Shown here in pieces: positions 15,447 to 39,748 of a stretch of DNA of 54,753 bases. This stretch comes from a bacterium BMS3Abin11 (GTDB lineage: Bacteria; Pseudomonadota; Gammaproteobacteria; BMS3Bbin11): positions 1 through 54,753 of the forward strand of contig BDTD01000009.1 in assembly GCA_002897635.1 (NCBI GenBank). The letters run 5' to 3'. Below the pieces are notes generated by a model, which did not search any database, was not told where the DNA came from, and saw only the letters and a program-made list of their open reading frames with translations. The stretch's first letter is position 1; every line of letters begins with the position of its first letter. The position numbers and the translations under genes are program-made.

Positions 15447-16481
15447 GTGCTTAGTGTGCCGGTCTCTATAGCCATAGATGGCCATGGCGGCGATTATGGT
15501 GTTTCGATAACTGTCCCTGCTGCACTTGCTGCATTAGCCGGTAATCCTGATCTGTCCCTGATCCTGGTAGGCCAACAGGATGTACTGGCAGCAGAACTGG
15601 CCAGACACGATAACAAATATCCTGACAGGCTGAGTATTCACCATGCCTCGCAAATTGTCGACATGGATGAACCCCCGGCTTCTGCATTGCGTGGCAAAAA
15701 AGATTCTTCCATGCGGATTTCTATTAACCTGGTCAAGGAAGGTAAAGCAGGCGCCTGTATAAGTGCCGGCAACACGGGTGCCTTGATGGCAACAGCCCGT
15801 TTCGTACTGAAAACATTATCAGGTATCAAACGTCCTGCCATTATCAGTGCCATCCCTACAATGCATGGCCATGTCCATTTTCTGGATCTTGGTGCCAATG
15901 TTGATAGCTCAGCAGAGGTCCTTCAGCAATTCGGTGTCATGGGATCCATACTTGTTCAGGCAAACGAGAAGATAGATTCACCAAAGGTAGGCTTGCTGAA
16001 TATCGGGCATGAAGATGTGAAAGGTAACGAAACGGTTAAAGCAGCTGCTGAATTACTGAAAAACAGCCCGGTAAATTATGTTGGCTTTGTAGAAGGGGAT
16101 GATATTTTTACTACAGATCTTGATGTTATTGTCTGTGATGGTTTTGTCGGCAATGTTTCACTGAAGACCATGGAAGGTCTGGCACAGATGATTACATCTA
16201 CCATGAAAGAAGAGTTCAATAAAAATATCCTGACAAAAATATCAGGACTCCTTGCCACGCCTGTTATCAAGTCCTTGCGCAGTCGACTGGATAATCGTCG
16301 TTATAATGGCGCTATTCTACTCGGGCTTCGAGGGACGGTGATTAAAAGTCATGGTTGTGCAGACATCTTTGCCTATTCACAGGCTATCAATGAAGGATAT
16401 AGAGCAGTTCAAAATCAGGTGCCTGAAATGATTGAAAAGGTGTTATCAGCTACAGATTTAAGCAATGAGACAGAGAACTAG
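15447..16481 (+). CDS. plsX: Phosphate acyltransferase PlsX
   Basis: It converts acyl-ACP to acyl-phosphate for the first step of phospholipid synthesis (PlsX/PlsY route). The 344-residue protein starts with the family block [11 protein letters not shown] and contains [20 protein letters not shown] and [19 protein letters not shown] at 15447 is the likely start, as plsX often starts with GTG; an in-frame GTG lies at 15456. It lies 27 bp after rpmF and runs into fabH. Confidence 0.94.
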
Positions 16482-17478
16482 GCTAGAAACTATAGTGAAC
16501 AACTCGGTCAAATCTTACTCCAGGATAATTGGCACAGGTAGCTATCTACCTGAAAAGGTATTGACAAATGCTGATCTCGAAAACATGGTCAATACCAGTG
16601 ACGAATGGATTACTAGCCGAACGGGTATTCGAGAGCGTCATATTGCGGCTGAAGGTGAAACCACCTGCGATATGGCAACGCATGCTGCCCGAATGGCATT
16701 GGAGTCTTCAGGACTTGGCCATTCAGACATCGATTTGATCATTGTCGCCACCACTACACCTGATCTGGTGTTTCCATCAACGGCCTGCCTGTTACAGGAG
16801 CGACTGGGCATACATGGTTGTCCGGCATTTGATGTGCAGGCGGTGTGCACAGGTTTTATCTACGCCCTGACCGTCGCAGATAAATTTATTCGCAGTGGCA
16901 GCTCGAAAAAAGCACTTGTGATTGGTGCAGAAACACTCTCACGCATAGTCGACTGGACAGATCGCGGTACCTGTATCCTGTTTGGTGATGGAGCCGGAGC
17001 GGTAATCCTTGAGAGCTCGGAAGAACCCGGCATCATATCAACGCATATACACTCTGATGGCCAGTTTAAGAACCTGTTGCAGGTACCGACAGGTATCTCC
17101 AGTAATTATCAGGATATCATAGAAGGGAATACCTTCATCGAGATGAAAGGAAATGAAGTATTTCGCATGGCCGTCAACACCTTAGGCCGGATAGTTGATG
17201 AAACACTTGACTATAACAACATGAAAAAATCAGATATAGACTGGCTTGTTCCACATCAGGCAAATATCCGCATTATTATTGCAACTGCAAAAAAGTTGGG
17301 GATGTCGCTGGACAACGTTGTAGTCACCATTGACAGGCATGGAAACACCTCTGCAGCCTCGGTTCCACTGGCATTTGATGAAGCTGTACGCGATGGCCGC
17401 ATCAAACAGGGCGAAACAGTTCTGCTGGAAGCATTTGGTGGTGGGTTTACCTGGGGTTCAGTACTGTTGAAGATGTGA
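16465..17478 (+). CDS. fabH: 3-oxoacyl-ACP synthase III (KAS III)
   Basis: It starts fatty acid synthesis by condensing acetyl-CoA with malonyl-ACP. The catalytic triad is visible: Cys128 (numbering from ATG 16465) in AVCTGF, His in VPHQANIRI and Asn in HGNTSAASV. An in-frame GTG at 16495 gives an N-terminus closer to other FabH proteins and removes the 17-base overlap with plsX; neither start has a strong ribosome site, so the start is open. Followed by a purine-rich 48-base gap and fabD. Confidence 0.95.
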
Positions 17479-17483
17479 CGTAC

Positions 17484-17526
17484 AAAAGAAGACGAAAGAT
17501 AAAAGGTTAAAGAGAAAAGATAAAAG
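17484..17526 (+). repeat. Purine-rich AAAGATAAAAGG tract
   Basis: The fabH-fabD gap is almost pure purine with repeats of the AAAGATAAAAG type, the same low-complexity motif found inside family C repeats and beside yajD and tatD. It includes the weak ribosome site of fabD. Confidence 0.5.
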
Positions 17527-18459
17527 ATGCGTGTAGCTTTTGTATTTCCTGGGCAGGGTTCTCAGTCTATTGGCATGATGAATTCGCTGGCTGAGTCAAA
17601 CTCAGTGATTCAGGAGACCTTTAGCGAGGCTTCATCAGTTCTTGGTTACGATTTATGGGAGCTGGTAGTTGGCGGGCCTGCGGAAAAACTGAATTCAACT
17701 GAATACACCCAGCCTGCAATGTTAGCGGCTGGTGTCGCTAGCTGGCGGGCATGGCTGGCTGCAGGTGGTACTGCACCGGCTATGATGGCAGGCCACAGTC
17801 TGGGTGAATACACCGCTCTGGTATGCGCCGGGGCGTTGGACTTCTCCGACGCGGTTGCACTAGTTTCGGATCGAGCGCGTTTCATGCAGGATGCTGTGCC
17901 GGCAGGTGCGGGTGCAATGGCTGCGATTCTTGGACTTGATGATGAACAGGTGGTAAAGCTTTGCCAGGATAATGCCTCCGGTGAAGTACTGGAAGCAGTT
18001 AATTACAATGCTCCCGGCCAGGTTGTTGTAGCTGGTACCCGCGCAGCCGTTGCTCGTCTGATTGAAAATGCCAAATCGGCTGGCGCTAAACGTGCTCTAG
18101 CATTACCAGTGAGTGTTCCATCCCATTGTGCGTTGATGAAACCAGCTTCAGAACGCATGACAGAGAGATTAAATGTAGTAGCCATAACTCAGCCTGAAAT
18201 ACCTGTAATTCACAATGTAAATGTTCAGGCTACTACAAATGAGGCTGAAATTCGTGAATTGTTGGCACGCCAGATTTCTGAGCCGGTACGTTGGGTTGAA
18301 ACTATCAACAATATGCATAATCATGGAGTTGCCCAACTGATTGAATGCGGGCCTGGCAAAGTTCTTTGTGGCTTAGCCAGGAGAATAAATCGAGATATCG
18401 GATGCATCCCACTGATTACGCAGGATTCTATTTCCGAGGCAATGGAGAGGAAAGAATGA
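17527..18459 (+). CDS. fabD: Malonyl-CoA:ACP transacylase
   Basis: It loads malonyl units from malonyl-CoA onto ACP. The 310-residue protein has GQGSQ at residues 9-13, the nucleophile elbow GHSLGE with Ser91, and the partner His in VPSHCALM. The C-terminal ECGPGKVLCGL is also typical. Its stop overlaps the fabG start (ATGA). Its substrate, malonyl-CoA, would also be the product of the MatB-like enzyme encoded further along this cluster. Confidence 0.96.
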   Translation: MRVAFVFPGQGSQSIGMMNSLAESNSVIQETFSEASSVLGYDLWELVVGGPAEKLNSTEYTQPAMLAAGVASWRAWLAAGGTAPAMMAGHSLGEYTALVCAGALDFSDAVALVSDRARFMQDAVPAGAGAMAAILGLDDEQVVKLCQDNASGEVLEAVNYNAPGQVVVAGTRAAVARLIENAKSAGAKRALALPVSVPSHCALMKPASERMTERLNVVAITQPEIPVIHNVNVQATTNEAEIRELLARQISEPVRWVETINNMHNHGVAQLIECGPGKVLCGLARRINRDIGCIPLITQDSISEAMERKE

Positions 18460-19199
18460 AACTTGAAGGAAAAATTGCTTTAGTCACTGGCGCCTCACGA
18501 GGAATCGGTGCAGCGATAGCAGATACACTGGCAGCTAATGGTGCCTTCGTTATTGGTACGGCCACCACACATGGGGGTGCGCTGGCAATTGAAGAACGTA
18601 TCACCTCAGCAGGTCAACAGGGAGTTGGTCGTGAGCTGGACGTTACCTCACAGGAGTCCATCGATGCCATTATAAAAGCCTGTGCAGAAATAAAGGGCGC
18701 GCCGGGCATACTCATAAACAATGCAGGAATTACCCGTGATAATTTGCTGATGCGAATGAAAGAAGAAGACTGGCAGGCCATTATTGATACCAACCTGTCT
18801 TCAGTATATCGAATGAGTAAGGCAGTACTGCGCGGCATGATGAAAGCAAAACAGGGTAGAATAATCAGTGTGACTTCGGTGGTGGGTGCCACTGGTAATC
18901 CAGGGCAGGTCAATTATTCTGCTGCAAAAGCAGGGGTAGCGGGATTTTCCCGCGCAATGGCGAGGGAAGTAGCCTCACGCAATATTACCGTCAATACGGT
19001 AGCGCCGGGTTTTATCGATACTGATATGACACGCGCTTTAGCAGAAGAACAACGCGAAAAATTAATTGCTGAAATTCCACTGTCGCGACTTGGTACAGTT
19101 GAAGATATCGCAAATGCTGTCTTATTTCTGGCCTCGGATGATGCATCATATATCACTGGCACAGAAATTCATGTAAACGGCGGCATGTATATGGGGTAG
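18456..19199 (+). CDS. fabG: 3-oxoacyl-ACP reductase
   Basis: NADPH-dependent reduction of 3-oxoacyl-ACP. A 247-residue short-chain dehydrogenase with the cofactor motif TGASRGIG (about residues 12-19), NNAG, a catalytic Ser in SVTSVVG and the YSAAK active site. The ATG at 18456 overlaps the fabD stop and has GAGAGGAAAG upstream; longer in-frame starts would intrude deep into fabD. Confidence 0.96.
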   Translation: MKLEGKIALVTGASRGIGAAIADTLAANGAFVIGTATTHGGALAIEERITSAGQQGVGRELDVTSQESIDAIIKACAEIKGAPGILINNAGITRDNLLMRMKEEDWQAIIDTNLSSVYRMSKAVLRGMMKAKQGRIISVTSVVGATGNPGQVNYSAAKAGVAGFSRAMAREVASRNITVNTVAPGFIDTDMTRALAEEQREKLIAEIPLSRLGTVEDIANAVLFLASDDASYITGTEIHVNGGMYMG

Positions 19200-19270
19200 A
19201 ATACCCACACAGGCCGGTTGAGTTGGACTGGCAATTGCAATTATGGTTAAAATGCCATTTTGAACAATCA

Positions 19271-19431
19271 GGGAACCTCTGATTAATTCTGGACGAAGTA
19301 GATTGCGATCTAAAATATTCAGGTTTGAGGCGCAAATCGCACGTAATAGCTGGCTATTGCGAAGGTTTGCAACGAAAAAACTGGATATTTTAGGCGTAAG
19401 ATACGAGTTCATGAATTGATCAGAGGTTCCC
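19271..19431. mobile_element. Family A MITE-like element, copy 2
   Basis: A 161-bp element with 19-bp terminal inverted repeats (19271-19289 and 19413-19431, one mismatch; GGGAACCTCTGAT... ends). The core CGCACGTAATAGC-tg-GCTATTGCGAAG (about 19339-19364) recurs inverted in the copy at 32611-32768. It encodes no protein and sits between fabG and acpP, so it may separate their transcription. Confidence 0.75.
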
Positions 19432-19458
19432 AAGTTTACTAGAGAGGATAAAAATCAA

Positions 19459-19695
19459 ATGAGTAGTGTTGAAGAACGCGTCAAGAAAATTGTTGCTGAA
19501 CAACTCAGTACCAGTGAAGACCAGATTTCAAGCACGTCTTCTTTCGTCGATGATCTGGGCGCAGATTCACTCGATACAGTTGAACTTGTTATGGCTCTTG
19601 AAGAAGAATTTGACCTCGAGATTCCGGATGATGAAGCCGAGAAGATCACCACAGTACAACAGGCTGTCGATCACATAAATGCTGCTACCAGCTAG
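19459..19695 (+). CDS. acpP: Acyl carrier protein
   Basis: A 78-residue acidic carrier of the growing acyl chain. The phosphopantetheine site is Ser37 in [10 protein letters not shown]. Length, acidity and helix pattern match gammaproteobacterial ACP. AGAGAGGA lies upstream of the ATG. A MITE-like element separates it from fabG and an intrinsic terminator follows, so acpP may be expressed more independently here than in E. coli. Confidence 0.97.
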
Positions 19696-19713
19696 TAGTT
19701 ATTGATCAGACAA

Positions 19714-19747
19714 AGTCGCTGCTCCTTCAAGGGCGGCGGCTTTTTTT
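19714..19747 (+). terminator. Intrinsic terminator after acpP
   Basis: GTCGCTGC pairs with GCGGCGGC (using G-T pairs) around CTTCAAG and is followed by seven T residues (19741-19747). Partial termination here would leave acpP mRNA in excess over fabF. Confidence 0.75.
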
Positions 19748-19787
19748 CTGATTTTTTGACTATCAATGAATTATTAAAGGTACCCAC

Positions 19788-21029
19788 GTGAGTAATCGTC
19801 GTGTTGTCGTCACAGGAATTGGGATACATTCACCGGTAGGACTAGGACTGGATGCAAACTGGCAAAATATTACTGCCGGCAGAAGCGGCATCAGTCGTAT
19901 TGAGAGTTTTGATACCACAGGTATGCCGGCTTCAATAGCGGGCCAGCTTGATGGTTTCGATCCAGAACACTGGATGGACAGGAAATCCTGCCGCAAAATG
20001 GACAGGTTTATTCAGCTTGGTATGGCTGCCGGACTTGATGCCATGGCAGATTCCGGCCTGGAAATTACCGATGAAAATTCTCATCTTATTGGTGTCCATA
20101 TAGGCGCAGGCATTGGTGGTCTGGCGACCATTGAAAAGCAGACAAAGTTATGGCTGGATCGCGGTCCACGACGTATTTCACCGTTCTACATACCCAGTAG
20201 CATCATCAATATGATTTCCGGCAATCTGTCTATTGCACTGGGTGCAAAAGGGCCAAATCTTGCCATTGTCACCGCCTGTGCAACCGGTACCCATTCAATT
20301 GGCGATGCAGCCAGGCTGATTGAATATGGCGATGCGGATGTAATGTTTGCTGGCGGTGCTGAAAGTTCGATTACACCGACCGCGATGGCAGGTTTTGGTA
20401 ATGCACGTACACTGAGTTCCCGCAATGATGATCCGCAGTCGGCCTCTCGTCCATGGGATATGGGGCGGGATGGATTCGTCATGGGTGAGGGTGCTGCTGT
20501 GCTGGTATTGGAAGAACTGGAGCATGCACGCAATAGAGGTGCGGAAGTTTATGTAGAACTGGCAGGATTCGGCTTAAGTGGTGATGCATACCACATGACC
20601 AGTCCTGCACAGGGAGGAGAAGGTGCCGCGCGCTGTATGGGAAATGCCATGCGCAATGCTGGCGTGAATCCACAGGATATTGATTACATCAACGCACATG
20701 GTACATCTACACCGCAGGGTGATATTGCAGAAACTCATGCCGTGAAAAGGGCAATGGGTGATCATGCAGGGGTTGTTGCAATAAGTTCAACTAAATCTAT
20801 GACAGGGCATCTGCTAGGTGCTGCGGGTGCGATTGAAGCCGTCTACACAATAATGGCCATTAGAGACCAGATTGCACCGCCAACTATCAATCTTGACGAC
20901 CTGGATCCTGAATGTGACCTGGATTTTGTCCCCGGAACTGCAAGAGATATGAAGATCGATGTCGCAATGTCGAATTCATTCGGTTTTGGTGGCACCAATG
21001 GCACACTGATTTTGAAACGTATGTCCTGA
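19788..21029 (+). CDS. fabF: 3-oxoacyl-ACP synthase II (KAS II)
   Basis: It condenses acyl-ACP with malonyl-ACP in elongation. The 413-residue protein carries the catalytic Cys in VTACATGTHS and the two histidines in NAHGTSTPQGD and KSMTGHLLGA. The start is GTG at 19788 with AAAGG upstream, giving MSNRRVVVTG. pabB begins three bases after its stop. Confidence 0.96.
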   Translation: MSNRRVVVTGIGIHSPVGLGLDANWQNITAGRSGISRIESFDTTGMPASIAGQLDGFDPEHWMDRKSCRKMDRFIQLGMAAGLDAMADSGLEITDENSHLIGVHIGAGIGGLATIEKQTKLWLDRGPRRISPFYIPSSIINMISGNLSIALGAKGPNLAIVTACATGTHSIGDAARLIEYGDADVMFAGGAESSITPTAMAGFGNARTLSSRNDDPQSASRPWDMGRDGFVMGEGAAVLVLEELEHARNRGAEVYVELAGFGLSGDAYHMTSPAQGGEGAARCMGNAMRNAGVNPQDIDYINAHGTSTPQGDIAETHAVKRAMGDHAGVVAISSTKSMTGHLLGAAGAIEAVYTIMAIRDQIAPPTINLDDLDPECDLDFVPGTARDMKIDVAMSNSFGFGGTNGTLILKRMS

Positions 21030-21031
21030 TC

Positions 21032-22426
21032 TTGTCATCGCACAGTCTTTTACGACAACTGAGTAACTGCCCTGATCTGTTTGATCTGGCAGAACACAAT
21101 CCTGAGAGATACCCCTTCCTGCTGGAAAATTCCGGTGAAACATCTGAACTGGGTCGCTATGATATTTTATTTGCCTTTCCGGGCGTACGATTATCGGCTC
21201 TGCCAGATGGTAGTTTATTGCATGATGGTAGTAATCTGGGCAAAAAACCTTTTCTTCACCAGCTGGATACAATCTATAGACATCGGGAAAATCAAACAGA
21301 AAATCAAACAGATATAGCCCGTGAACCCGGTCTGCCATTTTGTGGTGGCTGGTTCCTCTATTTAGGCTATGAGCTGGCAGCAGAAATAGAGCCTGTGCTG
21401 ACATCATCCCTGCATCGTCCTGAACTCCCTCGAGCAATAATGACAGAAATCCCTGCGGGTATAGTCCGCGATAAGCAGACAGGAAAAGATTATGTTTTTG
21501 CCTGCGGCATTGATGCAGAATCCATGCTTGGGTGCATTATTCAGGATATTCAGAAACTGGCGTACTCATCAGGATTCAGACAACAGAAAAAAAGCACGGC
21601 AAGTTGCGAAATACAGGAAGAAGAAAGCGAATCTTATCTAGCGAGTGTCAATCATATAAAAAGATACATCCGTGAGGGTGATGTGTTTCAGGTAAATCTC
21701 TCGCGCCGCTGGCAAGCTAATTGTAATGATGGGATTGCTGTCAATGAAGCCTGGCGCAGACTGCGAGTCGCTAACCCCGCACCGTTTGCAGCCTGGGCAA
21801 GAATAGATGACGCCACAACACTGTTGTCATCATCACCGGAACGTCTGATCGAACATCGCCAGGGAATCGTTCACACACGGCCAATTGCAGGCACCTATCC
21901 GCGCAGTGAAGATCTTCAACAGGACAGGGAATTCTCAGCGGAACTGTTGATGCACCCGAAAGAGCGGGCTGAACACATAATGCTGCTAGATCTTGAACGT
22001 AATGACCTTGGCCGAATCTGTCGGCCCGGATCCATAGCGGTCGATGATCTGATGGTGCTGGAGAGCTACACCCACGTTCACCACATCGTTTCATCTGTCA
22101 GTGGCAAGCTGAAGAAAGGCATTTCACCGGGCGACATCATCCGTGCTGTTTTCCCCGGCGGCACCATAACGGGTTGTCCAAAAGTACGCTGTATGGAGAT
22201 TATTGCCGAACTGGAGCAGGAAGCCCGCGATGCCTACACCGGCTCAGTCGGCTACCTGTGTTACAACGGTGATATGGATTTGAATATTCTCATTAGAACC
22301 ATCACTCACAAGAATAATTTCTACAGCTTTCGTGCCGGCGCAGGGATAGTCGCAGATTCCGATCCAGCGAAGGAATTATGTGAAACACGCTCCAAGGCCA
22401 AAGGGTTGAAGAAAATATTTGAGTGA
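21032..22426 (+). CDS. pabB: Aminodeoxychorismate synthase component I
   Basis: It makes 4-amino-4-deoxychorismate from chorismate with ammonia supplied by PabA, for folate. The 464-residue protein has the chorismate-binding fold: DVFQVNLSRR, LLSSSPERL, RPIAGT, FPGGTITGCPK and the C-terminal RAGAGIVADSDP. The PIAGT and GGTITG context fits PabB better than TrpE. The start appears to be TTG at 21032, directly after the fabF stop. Followed by a family C palindrome. Confidence 0.9.
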   Translation: MSSHSLLRQLSNCPDLFDLAEHNPERYPFLLENSGETSELGRYDILFAFPGVRLSALPDGSLLHDGSNLGKKPFLHQLDTIYRHRENQTENQTDIAREPGLPFCGGWFLYLGYELAAEIEPVLTSSLHRPELPRAIMTEIPAGIVRDKQTGKDYVFACGIDAESMLGCIIQDIQKLAYSSGFRQQKKSTASCEIQEEESESYLASVNHIKRYIREGDVFQVNLSRRWQANCNDGIAVNEAWRRLRVANPAPFAAWARIDDATTLLSSSPERLIEHRQGIVHTRPIAGTYPRSEDLQQDREFSAELLMHPKERAEHIMLLDLERNDLGRICRPGSIAVDDLMVLESYTHVHHIVSSVSGKLKKGISPGDIIRAVFPGGTITGCPKVRCMEIIAELEQEARDAYTGSVGYLCYNGDMDLNILIRTITHKNNFYSFRAGAGIVADSDPAKELCETRSKAKGLKKIFE

Positions 22427-22441
22427 GGAACAAGATAGCAC

Positions 22442-22590
22442 TGTAGGAGTGTCGCCCGGCGCGATTGTTTTAAATAAAAGATAAATGACTCGGGACTAAG
22501 GATGAAAGATAAATAATATATCAACTTCATGTTCTTTCATCCTTAGTCAAGAGTCCTTTGTCTGATACATCACACCGAGCGGCACCTACA
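22442..22590. repeat. Family C palindromic repeat, copy 1
   Basis: Outer arms TGTAGGAGTGTCGCCCGGCG... (22442-22465) and ...ACCGAGCGGCACCTACA (22569-22590) enclose a second, perfect 16-bp inverted repeat (GACTAAGGATGAAAGA 22494-22509 with 22533-22548). The nested layout recurs at 39571-39748 and, without the inner repeat, at 49827-49907. It separates pabB from the transporter module. Confidence 0.8.
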
Positions 22591-22755
22591 ATATTTTGAA
22601 GATCAACTCATAGACTCTCAGAAATAAATGGTTTACTCTTTCTGCGCACCATCGACAATAATCACAATCTCGTTCTGTGCGATCTATATCCTAAAAGATA
22701 AGTACCGGCCGGACATTAAAAGCTTGCAAACAAGCACATATCCAGGAGAAAACGA

Positions 22756-23763
22756 ATGAAACTCATAAGAAATATACTCACAAGCTTTGTAGTTGCCAGC
22801 ATGCTGCTAATCCCATTGGGTACTGCTCAGGCAGCAGAAATCAAACTTAAGGCCTCGCATCAGTGGCCTGGGGGTAAGGGTGATATTCGCGACGAAATGG
22901 TGCAGATGATCGCACGCGATATGAAGGCTGCAAATGTTGGCGTCGATATTAAGGTCTATCCCGGGAAATCACTCTTCAAGCCAAAAGAGCAATGGGCCGC
23001 AATGACCAAAGGCAAGCTGGATATTACAGCATTCCCATTAGCCTATGCAGGTGGCAGGCATCCAGAGTTTAATCTGACTTTAATGCCTGGACTGGTAAAA
23101 AATCACGATCACGCCAGACGTCTGAACAAATCACCATTCATGCAGCGCATTAAGGACATTATGGATAAAGCCGGTGTCATGGTTCTCGCCGATACCTGGT
23201 TGTCCGGCGGCTTCGTATCGAATAAAAAATGTATTCTTGAACCTGATGATGTAAAGGGCCAGAAGTTCCGTGCGGCAGGCAAGGCTTTTAATCAGATGTT
23301 AAAGGCAGCGGGTGCTTCAATTACTTCTATGCCATCCTCTGAAATCTACTCAGGTTTACAGACTGGCGTGCTCGATGGCGCTAACACATCGTCATCATCA
23401 CTGGTCTCCTATCGAATCTATGAACAGGTAACCTGTTTAACAGCCCCGGGTAAGAACGCACTATGGGTTATGTATGAGCCGATACTGATGGCGAAGAAAA
23501 GTTTTGCCAAATTAAACAAGGTACAGCAGAAAGCACTGTTGAAAGCCGCAGCAAAGGCAGAAGCATTCGCCTATCAGGCCTCTATAGAAGCAGATCAGAA
23601 GCTGGTCGATGCGTATAAAAAAGCAGGCGTTAAAGTGGTTGAAATGACCGCTGAACAGGCTGCAATGTGGCGTAAGATAGCCGATAAATCCAGTTATAAG
23701 GACTTCAGTGATAGTGTAAAAGGTGGAAAACAACTATTGGATATGGCACTTAGCGTCAAGTAA
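22756..23763 (+). CDS. dctP: TRAP transporter solute-binding protein (DctP family)
   Basis: A periplasmic binding protein of a tripartite ATP-independent periplasmic transporter. Residues 1-26 are a signal peptide ending AQA-A. The 335-residue protein follows the DctP pattern, with a conserved Arg in GQKFRAAGK that usually binds the substrate carboxylate. dctQ and dctM follow. Because a MatB-like malonyl-CoA synthetase lies downstream, malonate is the best guess for the substrate, as for MatPQM of Sinorhizobium. An AGGAGA ribosome site precedes the ATG. Confidence 0.9.
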   Translation: MKLIRNILTSFVVASMLLIPLGTAQAAEIKLKASHQWPGGKGDIRDEMVQMIARDMKAANVGVDIKVYPGKSLFKPKEQWAAMTKGKLDITAFPLAYAGGRHPEFNLTLMPGLVKNHDHARRLNKSPFMQRIKDIMDKAGVMVLADTWLSGGFVSNKKCILEPDDVKGQKFRAAGKAFNQMLKAAGASITSMPSSEIYSGLQTGVLDGANTSSSSLVSYRIYEQVTCLTAPGKNALWVMYEPILMAKKSFAKLNKVQQKALLKAAAKAEAFAYQASIEADQKLVDAYKKAGVKVVEMTAEQAAMWRKIADKSSYKDFSDSVKGGKQLLDMALSVK

Positions 23764-23777
23764 TTAGAAACTCTAGC

Positions 23778-23808
23778 AGGTTGGGCTTCCCTGCACTCAG
23801 CCCAACCT
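23778..23808 (+). repeat. Family D hairpin between dctP and dctQ
   Basis: AGGTTGGGCT (23778-23787) pairs perfectly with AGCCCAACCT (23799-23808), followed by ACAAAAATG. A hairpin here would be expected to raise dctP transcript over the membrane genes, as for other binding-protein operons. A related but longer palindrome lies at 51989-52069. Confidence 0.75.
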
Positions 23809-23853
23809 ACAAAAATGTTTGATTAGCTTTTTAACCACTAGAGTCTCCGCACT

Positions 23854-24378
23854 ATGAACGCCTTGATCCGATTTATCAGCGGACTCTCACGATTGCTGGG
23901 TATTCTGGCCGCCTTGCTACTAATAGCGGGTGTGCTGGTCGTAGTGCAAATGGTATTTCTTCGCTATGCACTGAGTGAATCCACAAGCTGGCAAACTGAA
24001 TTTGTCACTTATGCATTGATAGCATCTACTTTTTTAGGCGCTCCCTACGTGCTGTTAACTCGTGGACATGTCAATGTAGAGCTGGTGCCATTGATGCTTG
24101 GACCGAAAAGTCGGTTCGTTCTGGCACTATTTGCCTACAGCACTTCAGCATTACTGTGCTTTATTCTGACCTATTACAGCTACCTGTTCTGGTATGAGGC
24201 ATGGAGCGCAGGCTGGACTTCGGATACCATCTGGGGTCCAAAACTGTGGAAGATATACCTTTCTATGCCTGTGGGATTTTTTGTCATCAGCCTGCAGTAT
24301 TTAGTCGATCTGCTGTGCCTGGTTACGGGTAGAGAACTGCCATTCCATATTGCTGATGTCAATGAGGAGGCGGCCTGA
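23854..24378 (+). CDS. dctQ: TRAP transporter small membrane subunit (DctQ family)
   Basis: A 174-residue protein with four predicted membrane helices (about residues 13-35, 48-68, 88-110, 130-152). VFLRYALSESTSWQTEF matches the DctQ pattern, in which an aromatic-acidic segment follows the first helix. It pairs with DctM in the membrane. Its TGA overlaps the dctM start. Confidence 0.88.
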   Translation: MNALIRFISGLSRLLGILAALLLIAGVLVVVQMVFLRYALSESTSWQTEFVTYALIASTFLGAPYVLLTRGHVNVELVPLMLGPKSRFVLALFAYSTSALLCFILTYYSYLFWYEAWSAGWTSDTIWGPKLWKIYLSMPVGFFVISLQYLVDLLCLVTGRELPFHIADVNEEAA

Positions 24379-25694
24379 TGGATCCTTTGATTCTCGGTCT
24401 GCTGGCGGCTGTTGTTCTGATTATGCTATTGCTGAGCGGCATGCCCGTTGCCTTTGCTCTCGGTTTTACCGCTATTTTCTTCCTCATTATCGATGACGGT
24501 ATAGGTGCCTTCGATGTTGTGGCAGATACACTGTTCGGCTCTTTAGATGAATTCGCTCTGCTGTCTATCCCGATGTTTCTTCTGATGGGTTCCGCCATCG
24601 CGGCATCGCGTGCCGGTTCTGATCTCTATGAAGCGCTTGATCGCTGGCTGTATCGTATTCCCGGCGGGCTATTAATCTCCAATATTGGAGCCTGCGGCGT
24701 GTTTGCCGCCCTGACAGGCTCATCACCAGCCACCTGTGCGGCAATCGGTAAAATGGGCATCCCGGAAATGCGCAAACGCGGTTACCCGGCCAGTCTGGCG
24801 ACCGGAGCCATTGCTGCAGGCGGCACGCTGGGTATCCTGATACCACCTTCTATCACCATGATCGTCTACGGTATAGCCACCGAAACCTCCATTGGACGTC
24901 TGTTCATGGCAGGTGTTCTACCGGGGGCCATGTTGATGCTGCTGTTTATGTCCTGGTCATGGTTTTATGCCTACAAAAATGGCTATCACATTGTCGAAAG
25001 GAACAAACATTACAGTTTACGTGACAAATTCATTGTTCTACCCAAAATCCTGCCTTTCCTGTTATTAATCGTATTAGTACTCTGGGCCTTGTATGGTGGT
25101 GTGGCTACTCCCTCTGAAGCCTCAGGAGTCGGGGCTTTTATCAGCATTATTCTGGTCATGATTATTTATCGTGTCTGGCAACCGAGCGTATTGTGGGAGA
25201 TAGTGCGCAGTGCCACCCGTGAATCCGTGATGCTGCTGATGATTATCGGTATGGCTGGCCTGTTCAGCTATATGATGTCCAGCCTCTATATCACGCAAGG
25301 AATTGCCGAATGGATAGCGGCAATGGATGTCAATAAATGGCAACTTTTAATATACATCAATATCTTCCTTTTGGTGGCAGGCTTATTCCTGCCGCCAGTA
25401 GCCGTCATCCTGATGACCTCTCCCACACTCGTTCCGATCATTACACAGGCGGGTTTTGACCCAATCTGGTTCGGAGTAATGCTGACGCTGAATATGGAAA
25501 TAGGTCTGATCACCCCGCCAGTAGGACTCAACCTCTATGTGATTAATAGCATCGTCAAGGATGTCGAACTGAAAACGGTATTGTGGGGGGCCTTGCCGTT
25601 TATGCTTTGTCTGGTTTTCGGTATTTTTCTACTAACCATGTTTCCGGCCATCGCCACCTGGTTACCCGATTATCTGATGGGACCTGTAAACTGA
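24378..25694 (+). CDS. dctM: TRAP transporter large membrane subunit (DctM family)
   Basis: A 438-residue polytopic permease of about 12 helices carrying the sodium-coupled transport path. Family marks: LLSGMPVAFALGF, LLSIPMFLLMGS, SPATCAAIGKMGIPEM, GGTLGILIPPSI and the C-terminal GLITPPVGLNLYV. Translationally coupled to dctQ. Substrate inferred only from neighbours. Confidence 0.92.
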   Translation: MDPLILGLLAAVVLIMLLLSGMPVAFALGFTAIFFLIIDDGIGAFDVVADTLFGSLDEFALLSIPMFLLMGSAIAASRAGSDLYEALDRWLYRIPGGLLISNIGACGVFAALTGSSPATCAAIGKMGIPEMRKRGYPASLATGAIAAGGTLGILIPPSITMIVYGIATETSIGRLFMAGVLPGAMLMLLFMSWSWFYAYKNGYHIVERNKHYSLRDKFIVLPKILPFLLLIVLVLWALYGGVATPSEASGVGAFISIILVMIIYRVWQPSVLWEIVRSATRESVMLLMIIGMAGLFSYMMSSLYITQGIAEWIAAMDVNKWQLLIYINIFLLVAGLFLPPVAVILMTSPTLVPIITQAGFDPIWFGVMLTLNMEIGLITPPVGLNLYVINSIVKDVELKTVLWGALPFMLCLVFGIFLLTMFPAIATWLPDYLMGPVN

Positions 25695-25738
25695 GTGTGC
25701 TCTATCGCTGATTGTCAATTTACTCAGGGGGAGAGTTA

Positions 25739-26527
25739 ATGGACCTGACCATGCTACTGCTTTCCGGCGCTATCGCCGGGACCCTGGCGGGTCTACTGGG
25801 CATAGGTGGTGGTATAGTAATTGTTCCTATCGTCGTTTTATTTTTCGAAAGCCAGGGGCTGGATAATGCTCTGGCGATAAAGATGGCATTGGGCACCTCT
25901 CTGGCAACAATCATTTTTACAGCCATGTCCAGCATCTACACCCATCACCGCAAGCAGGCTGTGCAGTGGGGAATAGTAAAAATCATGACGCCGGGTATTC
26001 TAACAGGCTCTCTCACAGGCGCCTGGCTAGCGGATATAATTCCGGGAACTACATTGTACATCGCCTTCATCGTATTTCTATTTCTGGTGTCACTGCAAAT
26101 GGCAGTTAGCAGGGTTTCTGCACATCGCAGTCTGCCAGGCCGTTTCGTCATGAACGGCATCTCTTTTAGCTTTGGTACAGTATCGGCATTGATGGGAGTT
26201 GGTGGCGGTTCTTTGAATGTCCCTTTTCTCAGCTACTGCGGAATACCTATTAAAAAGGCAATTGCTACGGCGGCCGCAATCGGCCTGCCTATCGCAATCA
26301 GTGCGACATTGGGCTACATCATTGGTGGCCTGAATGAAGAAGGTTTGCCTTCTGGCAGCATTGGTTATGTGAATCTGCCCGTCTTTGGTGGTGTGGTGGT
26401 GGCCAGCCTGGTCTTTGCTCCAATCGGCGCAACACTCGCGCACAAACTTCCGGATCTGGTTTTACGGCGCTTATTTGCTGTTTTTATTTTTGTTCTGGCT
26501 ACTAAAATGAGCCTGAAGTTTCTGTGA
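25739..26527 (+). CDS. TSUP family permease (TauE/SafE type)
   Basis: A 262-residue membrane protein with two repeated halves of about four helices, each starting with a glycine-rich loop (GLLGIGGGIVIVP near residue 20, LMGVGGGSLNVPFL near 155). TSUP proteins move sulfite, sulfonates, sulfoacetate or other small organic anions. I start at the ATG at 25739 with GGGGGAGAG upstream. Lying between a TRAP system and a malonyl-CoA synthetase, it may handle the same or a related anion; direction of transport is not evident. Confidence 0.85.
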   Translation: MDLTMLLLSGAIAGTLAGLLGIGGGIVIVPIVVLFFESQGLDNALAIKMALGTSLATIIFTAMSSIYTHHRKQAVQWGIVKIMTPGILTGSLTGAWLADIIPGTTLYIAFIVFLFLVSLQMAVSRVSAHRSLPGRFVMNGISFSFGTVSALMGVGGGSLNVPFLSYCGIPIKKAIATAAAIGLPIAISATLGYIIGGLNEEGLPSGSIGYVNLPVFGGVVVASLVFAPIGATLAHKLPDLVLRRLFAVFIFVLATKMSLKFL

Positions 26528-26539
26528 ACATCTGAAAAA

Positions 26540-28057
26540 ATGAGTAACAAAAATCTCTATACATTATTTCTTAAGCATTCTCCGAAAGATGGCAATGCCG
26601 TATTTCTTGATGTTGTTGATGGTCGAAATCTGACCTATACGGAATTACACACCCAAACTGGTCAAATGTTAAATCTTCTAACGCAGAAGGGTGTTCTCAA
26701 GGGTGATCGCGTTGTGGTTCAGGTTGATAAATCCATAGAGGCGGTCGTATTGTATCTGGCCTGTCTGCGTGCCGGTGCTGTCTACATTCCACTCAACACT
26801 GCCTATACTTCTGCTGAGGTTGCTTACTTCCTCGGCGATGCATCACCGCAACTATTCGTTTGTGCGCCGACCCGAAAAGGTGAGTTAAAAAAGATAGCTG
26901 ATAAGCAGAACGTGCCTGAAACACTGACTCTCGGCATGGTCGCTGAGGGTGATCTGATGCAGGCCCTGACATCCTTGCCTGTGAGTGATGAGATTGTTGA
27001 TGTTGATGAAGATGACCTGGCGGCAATACTTTATACCTCCGGCACCACAGGGCGGTCCAAAGGCGCTATGCTGAGTCATCACAATCTGGCCGCCAATGCG
27101 CAGGTGCTGTTTGATTTCTGGCACTGGCAGGATGATGACGTGTTACTGCATGCTTTACCCATTTTTCACGTACACGGGCTATTTGTGGCATTGCACTGCG
27201 CCTTACTGGGTGGCTCAAGAGTCATCTTTATGCCACGCTTTAATGTTGACACCGTATTAGAAAAATTACCTGATTCCACAGTGATGATGGGAGTGCCGAC
27301 CTTTTACACACGCCTGCTTGAGCGGGATGATTTTACACGTGAAATATGCAGCGGAATGCGCCTGTTCATCTCCGGTTCCGCACCACTACTAACCGAGACC
27401 CACCGTGAATTTGAACAACGCAGTGGCCAGAAAATTCTTGAACGCTATGGCATGACCGAGACAGGCATGATCACCTCCAATCCATATGAAGGTGATCGAA
27501 TCGCAGGAACGGTTGGCTTTCCTTTACCCGGTATCAGTGTGCGGGTCGCAGATAAAATGGGCAATGCATTATCTCATGGTGTAGCCGGCATACTGGAAAC
27601 TACCGGTCCGAATGTATTTTTAGGCTACTGGCAGATGCCGGATAAAACAGCTGAAGAATTCCGGCCTGATGGCTGGTTTATTACCGGCGATATTGCTGAG
27701 ATCGATAAAGAAGGTAGAGTAACCATTGTGGGTCGTGCCAAAGATCTGATCATTTCTGGTGGCTTTAATGTTTACCCGAAAGAAGTCGAGGCAGAAATTG
27801 ATGATCTACCGGGGGTCAGTGAGTCTGCCGTTATTGCAGTCCCACATCCAGACTTTGGCGAGGCAGTGGTCGCTGTTATTGTGCCGGATGACAGTAGCGG
27901 CATTACAGAGCAGAACATAATAGATGCACTGCGCGACCGGCTGGCACGATTCAAACAACCTAAGAAAATCATGTTCCTCAATGAACTGCCACGCAATAGC
28001 ATGGAAAAGGTACAAAAAAATATCCTGCGTGATACTTACAGGGGACTTTTTATATGA
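26540..28057 (+). CDS. matB: Malonyl-CoA synthetase (MatB-like acyl-CoA ligase)
   Basis: A 505-residue ANL-family ligase that should form malonyl-CoA (or methylmalonyl-CoA) from the acid, ATP and CoA. Motifs: P-loop LYTSGTTGRSKG, A5 ERYGMTETGM, A8 GRAKDLIISGGFNVYPKE and the catalytic Lys in NSMEKVQKN. The stretches ALPIFHVHGLFVA and MMGVPTFYTRLL, and a Met-Gly-Lys-like end, are very close to MatB of Rhodopseudomonas rather than to acetyl- or long-chain CoA ligases. Specificity is inferred from memory of that sequence. No malonyl-CoA decarboxylase (MatA) is nearby. The stop overlaps the thioesterase start. Confidence 0.8.
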   Translation: MSNKNLYTLFLKHSPKDGNAVFLDVVDGRNLTYTELHTQTGQMLNLLTQKGVLKGDRVVVQVDKSIEAVVLYLACLRAGAVYIPLNTAYTSAEVAYFLGDASPQLFVCAPTRKGELKKIADKQNVPETLTLGMVAEGDLMQALTSLPVSDEIVDVDEDDLAAILYTSGTTGRSKGAMLSHHNLAANAQVLFDFWHWQDDDVLLHALPIFHVHGLFVALHCALLGGSRVIFMPRFNVDTVLEKLPDSTVMMGVPTFYTRLLERDDFTREICSGMRLFISGSAPLLTETHREFEQRSGQKILERYGMTETGMITSNPYEGDRIAGTVGFPLPGISVRVADKMGNALSHGVAGILETTGPNVFLGYWQMPDKTAEEFRPDGWFITGDIAEIDKEGRVTIVGRAKDLIISGGFNVYPKEVEAEIDDLPGVSESAVIAVPHPDFGEAVVAVIVPDDSSGITEQNIIDALRDRLARFKQPKKIMFLNELPRNSMEKVQKNILRDTYRGLFI

Positions 28058-28503
28058 AAAACACTGCAATCACCCTGCAAGAAAAGATCTACCAGGCTAT
28101 TCCATTAAGTAAAGCAATGGGTTATCACATTGTGGAACTCAGTAGTTCAAATATTATCGCCGAAGGGCCATTGGAACCAAATATTAACATCCATGGCACC
28201 GGCTTTGCAGGTAGCATCTATTCTCTGGCCACACTCAGTGCATGGACTCTGGTTTATCATGTTCTCACTGAACAGGAACTTGATGCTGAACTTGTCATTG
28301 CCAGGGCTGATATAAAATACCGCGCACCAGTAATAGGGACCATTCGTTGCGAATGTCAGCTCAGCAAATATCAGTTGCAGGCGTTTGTCGATGAGTTAGT
28401 CAAAAAAGATCGCGCTCGCATAGAGGCTGAAGTAACTATTGGAAAATTGCCTGAAGCACATTTGCATGCAACGCTGTTTGCCAGTCAGAAGGAAAGTAAA
28501 TGA
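28054..28503 (+). CDS. YiiD C-terminal-like hot-dog thioesterase
   Basis: A 149-residue protein matching the putative thioesterase domain found at the C-terminus of YiiD: IPLSKAMGYHIVELS at the N-terminus, NIHGTGFAGSIYSLATLSAW on the long helix with the usual HGTGFAGSL core, and VIARADIKYRAPV. Hot-dog thioesterases release acids from acyl-CoA or acyl-ACP. It overlaps matB by 4 bases and pabC by 4 bases, so all three are translationally coupled. Substrate unknown. Confidence 0.75.
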   Translation: MKNTAITLQEKIYQAIPLSKAMGYHIVELSSSNIIAEGPLEPNINIHGTGFAGSIYSLATLSAWTLVYHVLTEQELDAELVIARADIKYRAPVIGTIRCECQLSKYQLQAFVDELVKKDRARIEAEVTIGKLPEAHLHATLFASQKESK

Positions 28504-29339
28504 CATCTGAACAGACAAGATATCTGGTAAATGGTGAGAAAACAGACAGCATTTCTGTTACTGACCGCGGCCTGCAGTTCGGCGATGGTGTTTTTGAAAC
28601 CATAAGGATTCATCAGGGCAAACCGGTCTGGTGGCAACAGCACATCAATCGCCTGCTGGATGGCTGTCATCGTCTACGCTTTGCTGATCTGCCAGATGTT
28701 GATACCTTGCAACAGGAAGTCACCGCCCTGGCATCTGACTGCGTAGCTGGGGTACTTAAAATCATCATCACACGTGGTTACTCAAACAGTGGTTATGTTG
28801 CACCTGTAAATACACCAGCAAACAGAATATTGAGCTTGACACCAGGCATAAGACATCAGTCCAGAGCGGGGCAGGGAATAGTTATGGGTGTCTGCAGCCA
28901 GCGCCTTGCTGGTCATGATTCACTGTCAGGTATTAAACACCTCAATCGGCTTGAACAGGTGCTTGCCCGTATACAATGCCAGGCAGAAGGCTGGGATGAG
29001 GGCATAATGCTGGATGACCAGGGAACTGTCATAGAAGGCAGCATGAGTAATCTATTTGTCTGGCGGGAAGATCATTTATTCACACCGTCCCTGCAGAAAA
29101 CAGGCATAAAAGGTCTTTGTCGTAAGATAATTATCTCTCTGGCAGAAGAGAATGGAATAACATTGGAAAAAACGAAACTTCGATTAGAAGACCTGACAAA
29201 TAGTAGCGGAATCTTTGTCACAAACAGTCTTATCGGTATCTGGCCAGTAATTAACTTTAATCAGCAACAACTTACTGTCTGTGCAAATACCCGTTTATTA
29301 CAGGAGAGTCTTGAGGGTTCGATATGCTCGGCAGACTGA
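28500..29339 (+). CDS. pabC: Aminodeoxychorismate lyase
   Basis: A PLP fold-type IV lyase producing 4-aminobenzoate and pyruvate from aminodeoxychorismate. The 279-residue protein begins with VNGEKTDSISVTDRGLQFGDG, whose RGLQFGDGVFET block is diagnostic, has the cofactor Lys in GIKHLNRLEQ and the EGSMSNLF motif. It works after PabB; normally pabC follows fabF directly, but here six genes intervene. Confidence 0.92.
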   Translation: MTSEQTRYLVNGEKTDSISVTDRGLQFGDGVFETIRIHQGKPVWWQQHINRLLDGCHRLRFADLPDVDTLQQEVTALASDCVAGVLKIIITRGYSNSGYVAPVNTPANRILSLTPGIRHQSRAGQGIVMGVCSQRLAGHDSLSGIKHLNRLEQVLARIQCQAEGWDEGIMLDDQGTVIEGSMSNLFVWREDHLFTPSLQKTGIKGLCRKIIISLAEENGITLEKTKLRLEDLTNSSGIFVTNSLIGIWPVINFNQQQLTVCANTRLLQESLEGSICSAD

Positions 29340-30358
29340 TCGTATTATTTTTCATCCTGTCTGTGATTTTAGGATTGATTACTCAGAACTGGCTGCAGAA
29401 TGCTGAAACCAGAGTGGTGACGATTCAACCGCGTAATATCACCGTAGCAAACGGGGTCACAATGCGTGGCTTCGCAGAACAGCTGGTGCAGGAAGGACTG
29501 CTGGAGGAGAAGTGGTCTTTTCTATTCTGGGCACGCTACAGAAATTTGTCTTCATCCCTGAAAGCCGGTGAATATAAGGTTCCTGCTGATGCTACGATGA
29601 ATGATTTACTTCATCTGGTAACCTCTGGTCAGGTCATCGATTACCCAGTCACATTTATCGAAGGCTGGAATTTCAAACAATTGCGTAAAGCTTTGGCAAA
29701 ACAAAAAAATCTCAGGCAAACAATAGGAAAAATGGACGATAAGGCAATAATGAAAGCCATCGATGCAGAAGGCCAGTCCCCGGAAGGGCGCTTCTACCCG
29801 GACACCTATCACTATACCTCAACCATGACTGACCTGGATATTCTGCACCAGGCCTATGGAAAAATGAAACGCCTGCTCAACTACGAGTGGGAAAAACGTG
29901 CACCAGACCTGCCGCTGAAAAACAAAAGTGAAGCGTTAACATTGGCGTCGATTATTGAAAAAGAAACGGGAGTGGAAATCGAGCGCCCGTTAATTGCCAG
30001 TGTATTCATAAATCGACTGAGAAAAGGTATGCTATTGCAGACTGATCCAACAGTTATATACGGTATGGGAGACAGTTATAATGGCAATATACGAAGAAAA
30101 GATCTACGCAAGGATACGCCCTACAATACCTATACTCGAGCTGGCCTGCCGCCAACCCCGATAGCGATGCCGGGCGGAAAGGCAATAAAGGCAGCCTTAC
30201 ATCCTGCGCTGACAGATGCACTGTATTTTGTTGCAAAGGGGGATGGCACGCATTATTTTTCATCATCATTGCGTGAACATAATAATGCGGTAAATAAGTA
30301 CCAGATTAATAAAAGAAAAAATTATTCATCATCTAAGAATGTAGCTATAAAGAAATGA
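29324..30358 (+). CDS. mltG: Endolytic murein transglycosylase MltG
   Basis: It cleaves nascent glycan strands and sets their length. The 344-residue protein has an N-terminal membrane helix (about residues 4-20), a LysM-like region and the YceG domain with the catalytic Glu in ASIIEKETG, plus LQTDPTVIYGMG and the NTYTRAGLPPTPI block. Overlaps pabC by 16 bases; GAGGG precedes the ATG. Confidence 0.94.
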   Translation: MLGRLIVLFFILSVILGLITQNWLQNAETRVVTIQPRNITVANGVTMRGFAEQLVQEGLLEEKWSFLFWARYRNLSSSLKAGEYKVPADATMNDLLHLVTSGQVIDYPVTFIEGWNFKQLRKALAKQKNLRQTIGKMDDKAIMKAIDAEGQSPEGRFYPDTYHYTSTMTDLDILHQAYGKMKRLLNYEWEKRAPDLPLKNKSEALTLASIIEKETGVEIERPLIASVFINRLRKGMLLQTDPTVIYGMGDSYNGNIRRKDLRKDTPYNTYTRAGLPPTPIAMPGGKAIKAALHPALTDALYFVAKGDGTHYFSSSLREHNNAVNKYQINKRKNYSSSKNVAIKK

Positions 30359-37384: not shown

Positions 37385-39334
37385 TCAACTCTCTTGCTGT
37401 GGCAAACTGTCGTATTTGCGGGAGCAAACAATTGCCCGATCGTACTGTGTATCTTCTGGGAATGACTGTGCAATTACCCATATCTGTCGTATTTCTTCGC
37501 TAAGTTTAGGTAGAATCGCCATTGCATTTCGGGTGCGGGTTTCGTCGAAAAAAGCAAAAGGTTCATCCAGAAAGATGAACTGGTCGCTGCCACCTGTGGT
37601 ATTCACCAGTTCCTGTGACAGGGCAAGCCTGACGGCAAGCATTATCTGACGTTGTGTACCGCTGGAAATTTCTTCCAGATCCATATAATCACGTTTAAGG
37701 CTGGAGAACGCACGCACGCTGAGGTCGTCACCTATATGCAAATGTTCATAGCGTTCCTCAGTAAATAAGGGCAGGGTGCGGCTGGCCATTTCACGTAAAT
37801 CCTTGTTAAATCGTTGTGAGAAATGTCGGGTAGCGGCGATGATGAGTTCTTCTGCGATTTCGCGCAGCTGGATACGGTGCTTTACTTCATCCAGTTTCTC
37901 CTTCAGATTGCTGGTGACCCCCATTAGTGCATCGGCCTTTGCAAGTCTGTCCTGCTCATTACTGAGCGATGATTCCAGCGCTTCCTGAGTGTCTTGTTGT
38001 GCCGACAATCTATTTTGTAATTGCTCCCGTATATTCCTGACTAACACATCGGTTCTATCCTTACTAAGTTTGCACTTACGAATGGCAGACAGATCAACCG
38101 TACTTATAGACTGAATACTACTCTCTGTACTACTTTCAATTGTTGTCTCAGCTTGCACCGAATCAGTCAATTTCTCAGAGTTCTCATCTACAGTTTCAGT
38201 ATTAATTATTTCTTCGTTTTCTGGAGAATCATCAGCTTTGGGTTCAACAAAAGAATCCGAATTCTGATCAACAGGAAGATCAAGTGCATCGCTGGCCGCC
38301 TGTACCTGCTCTGCCAACAGTACGCAGTTCTTTTTCAATATGGAAATCTTTCTCTTCATCACTGATCTGATCAACCAGAATAGCAGTATAAATAAGGCTG
38401 AAACATAAAATGCCAGTTGCAGTTGAGAGATGTACTGATTTCTCCATAGAGGGACATATTGCTCAATCAAAACAGTAAGCTGGCTGGTGTATGTTGAGTC
38501 AGGTATTCTATTGAACAAATACCAGGCCGCACCTGTAGCTACGGTGGCAGCCAGGGATAAAAAAGAAAACAATTCTGCGAAACGTTTTATTAATTGTGCT
38601 GATTTATAGCGGGGCAGGGCATTGCGATAGTTCTGTGAGGCTTTGTTCAGGGCTTCATTATTCTTTTGCAGAGAGCTTCCACGCTGTCTGATTGTATCGA
38701 GGTCTATTTCCAGTCCATTCAGTTTTCCCGGTTTAATCTTCAGTGCCTCAATATCTGCCTCAACCGCATTAATCTGTTCATCGATATCTGGTTGTTTGCG
38801 CTGCTCATTCTTCAAGCCAGCAGACAATTCATCCGCCACCTTTTCCAGTGCCGAGATACCGGCCATGGTCTTAATCGCAAGGCTATGCGGGTGGGGAGTG
38901 GTGATTTCACGTTGCGCCAGGTAAAAGGATTCAACAAATTCTTCAAACTGATAACCAAGTAAGCCATCCAGTGCCTCACTGACGGCATTGATGCCTTTTG
39001 CGAAAGGGTGCTCTTCCTCACCAGCAGGATAAAGACGTGCACCGTGATTACCCTCGTTATCGAGGAAGCGGGCAATCTCGTAATCTTTGTCACCTATGGC
39101 AAAGCCCAGGTGGACACTGCAGCGCGACTCACCCCAGCGGATAACGCGCGTGATTTCCTCTTCGCCGATAGAAAAGGTGCGTCCGAACAGGGCAAAACAA
39201 ACCGTTTCACCGATGGTGCTTTTACCGGATTCATTCTCGCCGCTAATGGCAATAACACCCTGACGAGGGATGTCAGTAAGCTCAAGGTGGGTGTATTTGA
39301 GAAGATTGTCTGCTTTGATATGGGTAATGATCAT
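37385..39334 (-). CDS. Membrane-spanning Rad50/SbcC/YhaN-like ATPase
   Basis: A 649-residue ABC/SMC-type ATPase. The Walker A motif is SGENESGKST (residues 31-40), followed by a Q-loop region; near the C-terminus come the signature-like ISSGTQRQIMLAVRLALSQE and Walker B FIFLDEPFAFFDETR. Coiled coils flank the middle, where two membrane helices (about residues 255-280 and 303-325) interrupt the arms, as in YhaN rather than SbcC. A Ser/Glu-rich low-complexity stretch follows. No SbcD or YhaO-type nuclease is adjacent; a 61-residue gene precedes it. Role probably in DNA repair or defence at the membrane. Confidence 0.8.
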   Translation of the reverse strand: MIITHIKADNLLKYTHLELTDIPRQGVIAISGENESGKSTIGETVCFALFGRTFSIGEEEITRVIRWGESRCSVHLGFAIGDKDYEIARFLDNEGNHGARLYPAGEEEHPFAKGINAVSEALDGLLGYQFEEFVESFYLAQREITTPHPHSLAIKTMAGISALEKVADELSAGLKNEQRKQPDIDEQINAVEADIEALKIKPGKLNGLEIDLDTIRQRGSSLQKNNEALNKASQNYRNALPRYKSAQLIKRFAELFSFLSLAATVATGAAWYLFNRIPDSTYTSQLTVLIEQYVPLWRNQYISQLQLAFYVSALFILLFWLIRSVMKRKISILKKNCVLLAEQVQAASDALDLPVDQNSDSFVEPKADDSPENEEIINTETVDENSEKLTDSVQAETTIESSTESSIQSISTVDLSAIRKCKLSKDRTDVLVRNIREQLQNRLSAQQDTQEALESSLSNEQDRLAKADALMGVTSNLKEKLDEVKHRIQLREIAEELIIAATRHFSQRFNKDLREMASRTLPLFTEERYEHLHIGDDLSVRAFSSLKRDYMDLEEISSGTQRQIMLAVRLALSQELVNTTGGSDQFIFLDEPFAFFDETRTRNAMAILPKLSEEIRQIWVIAQSFPEDTQYDRAIVCSRKYDSLPQQES

Positions 39335-39570: not shown

Positions 39571-39748
39571 TGTAGAAGCGTCGCTCGGTGCGATTTTTTT
39601 TAGATAAAAGACGAAGGATTAAAGATAAAGGATGAAGGTTATAAGGGCAAGACGTACAATTGTTTCTCTTTTTCATCCTTGATTTTTTACCTTTAGTCCT
39701 TAATCCTTCGTCCTGCGTCGAAAAAACGCACCGAGCGACGCTCCTGCA
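39571..39748. repeat. Family C palindromic repeat, copy 2
   Basis: Outer arms TGTAGAAGCGTCGCTCGGTG... (39571-39599) and their inverted copy (39721-39748) share the core GCGTCGCTCGGTGCG. Inside is a perfect 13-bp inverted repeat GACGAAGGATTAA (39610-39622 with 39700-39712) and AAGGATGAA-type tracts. It lies between the aminotransferase 3' end and the start of the ATPase operon. Confidence 0.8.

Follow-up and report, generated by a model that had tools for sequence, protein, structure and literature searches.

A malonate uptake and activation module inserted in the fab-pab cluster of a gammaproteobacterium, with a putative link to fatty acid synthesis

The DNA analysed here (hereafter the window) is a single contig (C9) of 54,753 nucleotides from bacterium BMS3Abin11, a member of the Gammaproteobacteria with a 2.67 Mb genome that is 99.92% complete. 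Six codirectional genes, matP-matQ-matM-TSUP-matB-yiiD (the last referred to below as madB), sit in the interval between pabB and pabC, downstream of a block of fatty acid genes. The features, delimited by open reading frames and matches to family profiles unless otherwise given, are as follows:

15447-21029, + strand: plsX-fabH-fabD-fabG-acpP-fabF, the fatty acid block upstream of pabB
21032-22426, + strand: pabB, left neighbour of the insertion (NF006563, 564 bits, cut-off 514)
22427-22755, + strand: pabB-matP intergenic region (three-species alignment, repeat matches, and a scan for terminator-like elements)
22756-23763, + strand: matP, TRAP solute-binding protein, probably malonate-binding (PF03480)
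23854-24378, + strand: matQ, TRAP small permease, DctQ (PF04290, 93.5 bits)
24378-25694, + strand: matM, TRAP large permease, DctM (TIGR00786, 380 bits, cut-off 268)
25739-26527, + strand: TSUP (TauE/SafE) permease (PF01925, 178 bits; TTG at 25712 could serve as an alternative start)
26540-28057, + strand: matB, malonyl-CoA synthetase (NCBI malonyl-CoA synthase model NF005702, 793 bits, cut-off 558)
28004-28006, + strand: codon GAA, giving Glu at the position of the conserved Gly that precedes the MatB catalytic Lys
28054-28503, + strand: madB (YiiD_C), standalone hot-dog protein of 149 residues (PF09500, 119.5 bits, cut-off 27)
28500-29339, + strand: pabC, right neighbour of the insertion (TIGR03461, 273 bits)
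28500-30358, + strand: pabC and mltG together

This gene content, the position of fabD, fabH, and fabF upstream of pabB, and the overlaps among the last genes agree with the initial annotation, which was made from the sequence without database searches. The overlaps measure 4 nt between matB and madB, 4 nt between madB and pabC, and 16 nt between pabC and mltG, which suggests translational coupling of the module to pabC and would favour co-expression. All six reading frames of the module are open. In related gammaproteobacterial mat loci, the TSUP gene lies after matM or matA.

Between pabB and matP, a REPIN-like palindrome at approximately 22442-22590 is found in this genome only, being absent from G003 and G005, two same-genus genomes that carry the insertion; the approximately 150 bases that follow it are partly conserved in a three-species alignment of the window, G003, and G005. 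A small hairpin (22722-22735, GCTTG-CAAA-CAAGC) directly precedes the ribosome-binding site of matP and reads GCCTG-CAAA-CAGGC in G005, a paired change relative to the window. Boxes of the MatR type (TTGTATACAA-like) were searched for upstream of matP and were found in neither the window nor the gammaproteobacterial loci, the two rhizobial controls alone being positive. The REPIN-like elements of the window, at 22442-22590 and 39571-39748, have inverted TGTAGGAGYGTCGCYCGG-like ends around a palindromic core.

The nearest structures to MatP in a sequence search were 4mco/4mev of Rhodoferax (237 bits, the next match scoring 93), to which it is 38% identical over 307 residues, and a model of the protein likewise matched 4mco/4mev best (Z 38.9, the next entry scoring 33.8). 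The 4MCO structure has malonate in its binding site (PMC4086125, a software paper), a ligand that could stem from crystallisation. A scan of 84,980 species was made for relatives of MatP, and among the best 80, which include loci of Rhizobium, Agrobacterium, and Ancylobacter, both matB and matA were present in the flanks at 48. These neighbourhoods, together with the kinship of the protein, place MatP in the MatPQM family, a Sinorhizobium member of which has been linked to malonate uptake in work cited in PMC5237526. By homology, then, malonate is the predicted ligand and MatPQM the predicted importer.

MatB has as its best PDB match 4fuq, the MatB of R. palustris (RpMatB; 589 bits), and keeps the catalytic Lys aligned to RpMatB K488 as well as the ERYGMTE and LPxxHxHGLF motifs, features from which it is predicted to make malonyl-CoA. 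The Gly before the catalytic Lys, which is conserved without being a strict definition of the family, is present in G003 and G005 and missing from the window: MatB here reads MEKVQK, where all other relatives examined, G003, G005, and G002 among them, have MGKVQK (the G008 contig stops before this codon, so G008 is absent from the comparison). The substitution may reflect an error in the consensus sequence or a genuine mutation, with or without harm to the enzyme; standing beside the catalytic Lys, it possibly weakens the window MatB, and it lowers the claim of activity for this copy. A Thr of RpMatB, which we take to line the substrate pocket, is Val in the window MatB. The same Val occurs in MatBs adjoining matA (L021, L011, and L022), so it does not speak against malonate as the substrate. 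Methylmalonate is a further substrate of R. palustris MatB.

The last gene of the module had been read as a YiiD-type thioesterase. Its family assignment stands, and the thioesterase name does not, being an old annotation of the family; the MadB-type catalytic loop of the protein is complete, and members of PF09500 annotated as thioesterases are in fact malonyl-ACP decarboxylases (PMC8666670). Asn45 is the key residue of these enzymes, mutants of N43, H47, and T49 lose activity tenfold, and F51 is invariant (PMC8666670); Arg124, in P. putida numbering, is also required (PMC12093956). At MadB numbering, the window protein has N43, N45, H47, T49, F51, and S54, with the loop N43-I-N45-I-H47-G-T49-G-F51, and pairwise alignment places its Arg122 at the position of Arg124. 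The same loop residues are found in mat-linked relatives, and a model of the window protein superposes on 8ayv, the P. putida MadB, with a TM score of 0.88. An acyl-CoA thioesterase, an identity suggested by the family annotation only, is less likely; the characterised PF09500 members are decarboxylases (PMC8666670). The protein is probably MadB, a malonyl-ACP decarboxylase that would make acetyl-ACP primer.

The window genome has one PF09500 copy, and G001, which is without the mat module, has none. In a draw of 369 gammaproteobacteria, MadB homologues adjoining matB or matA occurred in other families too, and in a family tree the mat-linked MadBs fell on one 96/84 branch together with two unlinked copies. 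Because MadB accompanies matB also in loci that retain matA, its presence does not mark the anabolic form alone; its distribution points to a long-standing partnership with matB, matA-bearing loci among them. A literature search found no paper that treats MadB, malonate, and a malonyl-CoA synthetase together. At L130:553-1929 (family f154), a MadB of the mat branch directly follows a gene that by eye resembles a D-2-hydroxyacid dehydrogenase, not matB, and at L129:579-1265, near a mat-type MadB without an adjoining matB, an open reading frame resembles, by eye, a REP-associated transposase.

The module is without matA, as the initial annotation had stated, and a protein search of eight genomes of the order matched G002 only, with none in the window genome. 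Malonyl-CoA decarboxylase (PF05292) was detected in neither the window genome nor G003, G008, and G009, while ten comparison genomes were positive; MdcA of malonate decarboxylase was found in none of 21 genomes, a weaker negative in that the sole control match lay below the cut-off; and the window genome has only two carboxyltransferase domains, read by position and size as AccA and AccD, with no further carboxyltransferase-type decarboxylase beyond them. A malonyl-CoA decarboxylase encoded elsewhere, which the initial annotation held would make malonate a purely catabolic substrate, was thus searched for across the genome as three known decarboxylase types, and none was found. A search of 18 genomes likewise gave no methylmalonyl-CoA mutase, with 8 controls positive, a result that sets aside methylmalonate catabolism through the mutase. 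No protein of the window genome matched the GntR-type MatR of G002 at 1e-10, and a MatR-like protein was present in G002 only. Malonyl-CoA made here is without a known catabolic exit.

The absence of the tested decarboxylating routes and of the mutase strengthens the proposal, also made in the initial annotation, that external malonate is fed to fatty acid synthesis. The accompanying claim of a bypass of acetyl-CoA carboxylase (ACC) did not hold: ACC has not been lost, and since AccA and AccD are present, malonate would be a parallel supply that supplements the carboxylase and does not replace it, with no genetic need for malonate. At the loci L012-L016 and L020, which form a second gammaproteobacterial group, matB lies beside, and divergent from, a GntR-PQM-TSUP operon, and matA is absent wherever the contig is long enough. 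The corresponding genomes (G012-G016 and G019) gave no malonyl-CoA decarboxylase match and, bar a weak match in G014, lack MadB, both results being tentative as completeness is not reported.

pabB and pabC are adjacent in five of the seven other genomes of the order (G001, G002, G004, G006, and G007). A survey of genomes for the same insertion, named as a check in the initial annotation, found it in few related species only: besides the window, it is present in G003, whole and in identical gene order, and in G005, where both ends are seen on two contigs (L009 and L100), giving three species of the genus in all (G009 and G005 were taken as one genome because of their identical contig coordinates). 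The recurrence of the order in G003 and of both junctions in G005 indicates that the arrangement is not due to chance. Between the window and G005, the solute-binding protein is 87% and MadB 73% identical. Seven genomes represent the genus, and four of them lack the insertion, which is thus dispensable. G002, of the same genus, has the order GntR(matR)-PQM-matA-TSUP-matB-yiiD at another site, not between pabB and pabC, with strong PF05292 and PF17408 matches in its matA; relative to this form, the inserted form is missing matA and matR. In the genus tree, G003 is basal, the window genome and G001 are sisters, and G005 comes next, and in the matP tree the window, G005, and G003 group together. 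An old insertion followed by losses and repeated transfer would both fit these trees. For matP, dN is approximately 0.07-0.08 against a dS of approximately 1-2 in the pairs giving estimates, several other pairs being saturated and yielding no dS, which indicates clear purifying selection, at least on matP.

We favour, with a probability of roughly 0.6, the reading that a malonate-salvage operon has been turned from catabolism to lipid synthesis, with scavenged malonate serving as both starter and extender in parallel to ACC and FabH. MatPQM would import external malonate and MatB would convert it to malonyl-CoA, which, as no malonyl-CoA decarboxylase was found, would leave mainly via FabD, encoded approximately 8 kb upstream in the cluster, through transfer of the malonyl group to ACP. 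MadB would then decarboxylate part of the malonyl-ACP to acetyl-ACP, which is usable as a primer by elongating synthases (PMC8666670) and would here be elongated by FabF, and the remaining malonyl-ACP would act as chain extender. This supply would run beside ACC and FabH, both of which the genome keeps. Placement in an operon alone does not prove flux. At somewhat less than even odds, the locus may represent a natural route in which malonate, as primer through MadB-made acetyl-ACP and as extender, spares acetyl-CoA, ACC, and FabH, with MatB-MadB as a recurrent and undescribed gammaproteobacterial pair.

The malonyl-CoA could also be burned. A catabolic malonate operon might merely have landed in the cluster, with a hidden decarboxylase, or MadB acting slowly on malonyl-CoA, supplying acetyl-CoA for energy, as the matA of the G002 operon and the ability of MadB enzymes to decarboxylate malonyl-CoA (Km above 5 mM) would allow; however, these enzymes prefer malonyl-ACP (PMC8666670), and with malonyl-CoA decarboxylase, MdcA, extra carboxyltransferase proteins, and MatR not found in the genome, we consider this unlikely. 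A similarly low likelihood attaches to the relief valve that the initial annotation ascribed to the thioesterase, by which MadB, or a putative thioesterase activity of it, would mainly avert a build-up of malonyl-CoA or malonyl-ACP and lipid carbon would be a side effect. MadB does travel with matB even beside matA, and its family is annotated as thioesterase, but the decarboxylase-type catalytic loop argues against a valve, and the product would be acetyl-ACP, a usable primer (PMC8666670). Moreover, gammaproteobacterial relatives that have matB and no malonyl-CoA decarboxylase match are mostly without MadB, so a valve is not required.

We give very little weight to a recent selfish or decaying insertion that is functionless in this genome: the Gly-to-Glu change beside the MatB catalytic Lys and the lack of the insertion in the sister genome G001 would fit decay, but the open frames, the low dN relative to dS where it could be estimated, and the upstream DNA conserved in three species would not. 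It would be just as surprising if the true substrate were methylmalonate or another small diacid. The use of methylmalonate by R. palustris MatB and the Val at the presumed pocket position lend themselves to such a reading, against which stand the missing mutase, the same Val in MatBs adjoining matA, and a solute-binding protein nearest to the malonate-holding 4mco.

Bacterial malonate operons are known for catabolising malonate, and most known cases of malonate-fed fatty acid synthesis are engineered strains. The window module shares the PQM TRAP genes and MatB with matPQMAB of Sinorhizobium/Rhizobium (with matR/gtrA), its solute-binding protein and MatB being approximately 58% and 57% identical to the rhizobial ones; it differs in being without matA and the GntR regulator, in the locus or the genome, in the addition of madB and TSUP, and in its position inside the fab-pab cluster. 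The window MadB has the same standalone hot-dog fold and catalytic loop as the MadBs of Shewanella oneidensis (1T82), Pseudomonas putida (8AYV), and Xanthomonas, but unlike these it is genetically coupled to matB, and it lies on a branch of the family tree separate from the S. oneidensis enzyme. The malonyl-CoA synthetases ACSF3 and AAE13 feed mitochondrial fatty acid synthesis and likewise activate malonate for malonyl units outside ACC, although they work in a eukaryotic organelle on endogenous malonate and without a dedicated importer operon; the ACSF3 reaction is given in PMC13228397. The engineered MatB-MatC of E. coli replaces ACC and leads from external malonate through malonyl-CoA to fatty acids, as in the favoured reading: in a strain without bioH, matBC and malonate restore biotin-free growth, which shows that external malonate can carry fatty acid synthesis (PMC12303837). 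The window system, in contrast, is natural, uses a TRAP transporter instead of MatC, adds MadB, and retains ACC.

The matB-madB pairing offers a clear metabolic setting for the recently discovered malonyl-ACP decarboxylases and makes the idea of a malonate-to-lipid route directly testable. Related species also provide a natural comparison between an operon with matA and matR (G002) and a form without both in the fatty acid cluster (the window, G003, and G005), with the uninterrupted fab-pab cluster of G001, G002, G004, G006, and G007 as a third state. Elsewhere in the window, an open reading frame of 649 residues at 37385-39334 is without an NCBIfam match at 1e-20, and a gene for MerA mercury(II) reductase lies at 46654-48072 (551 bits, cut-off 454).
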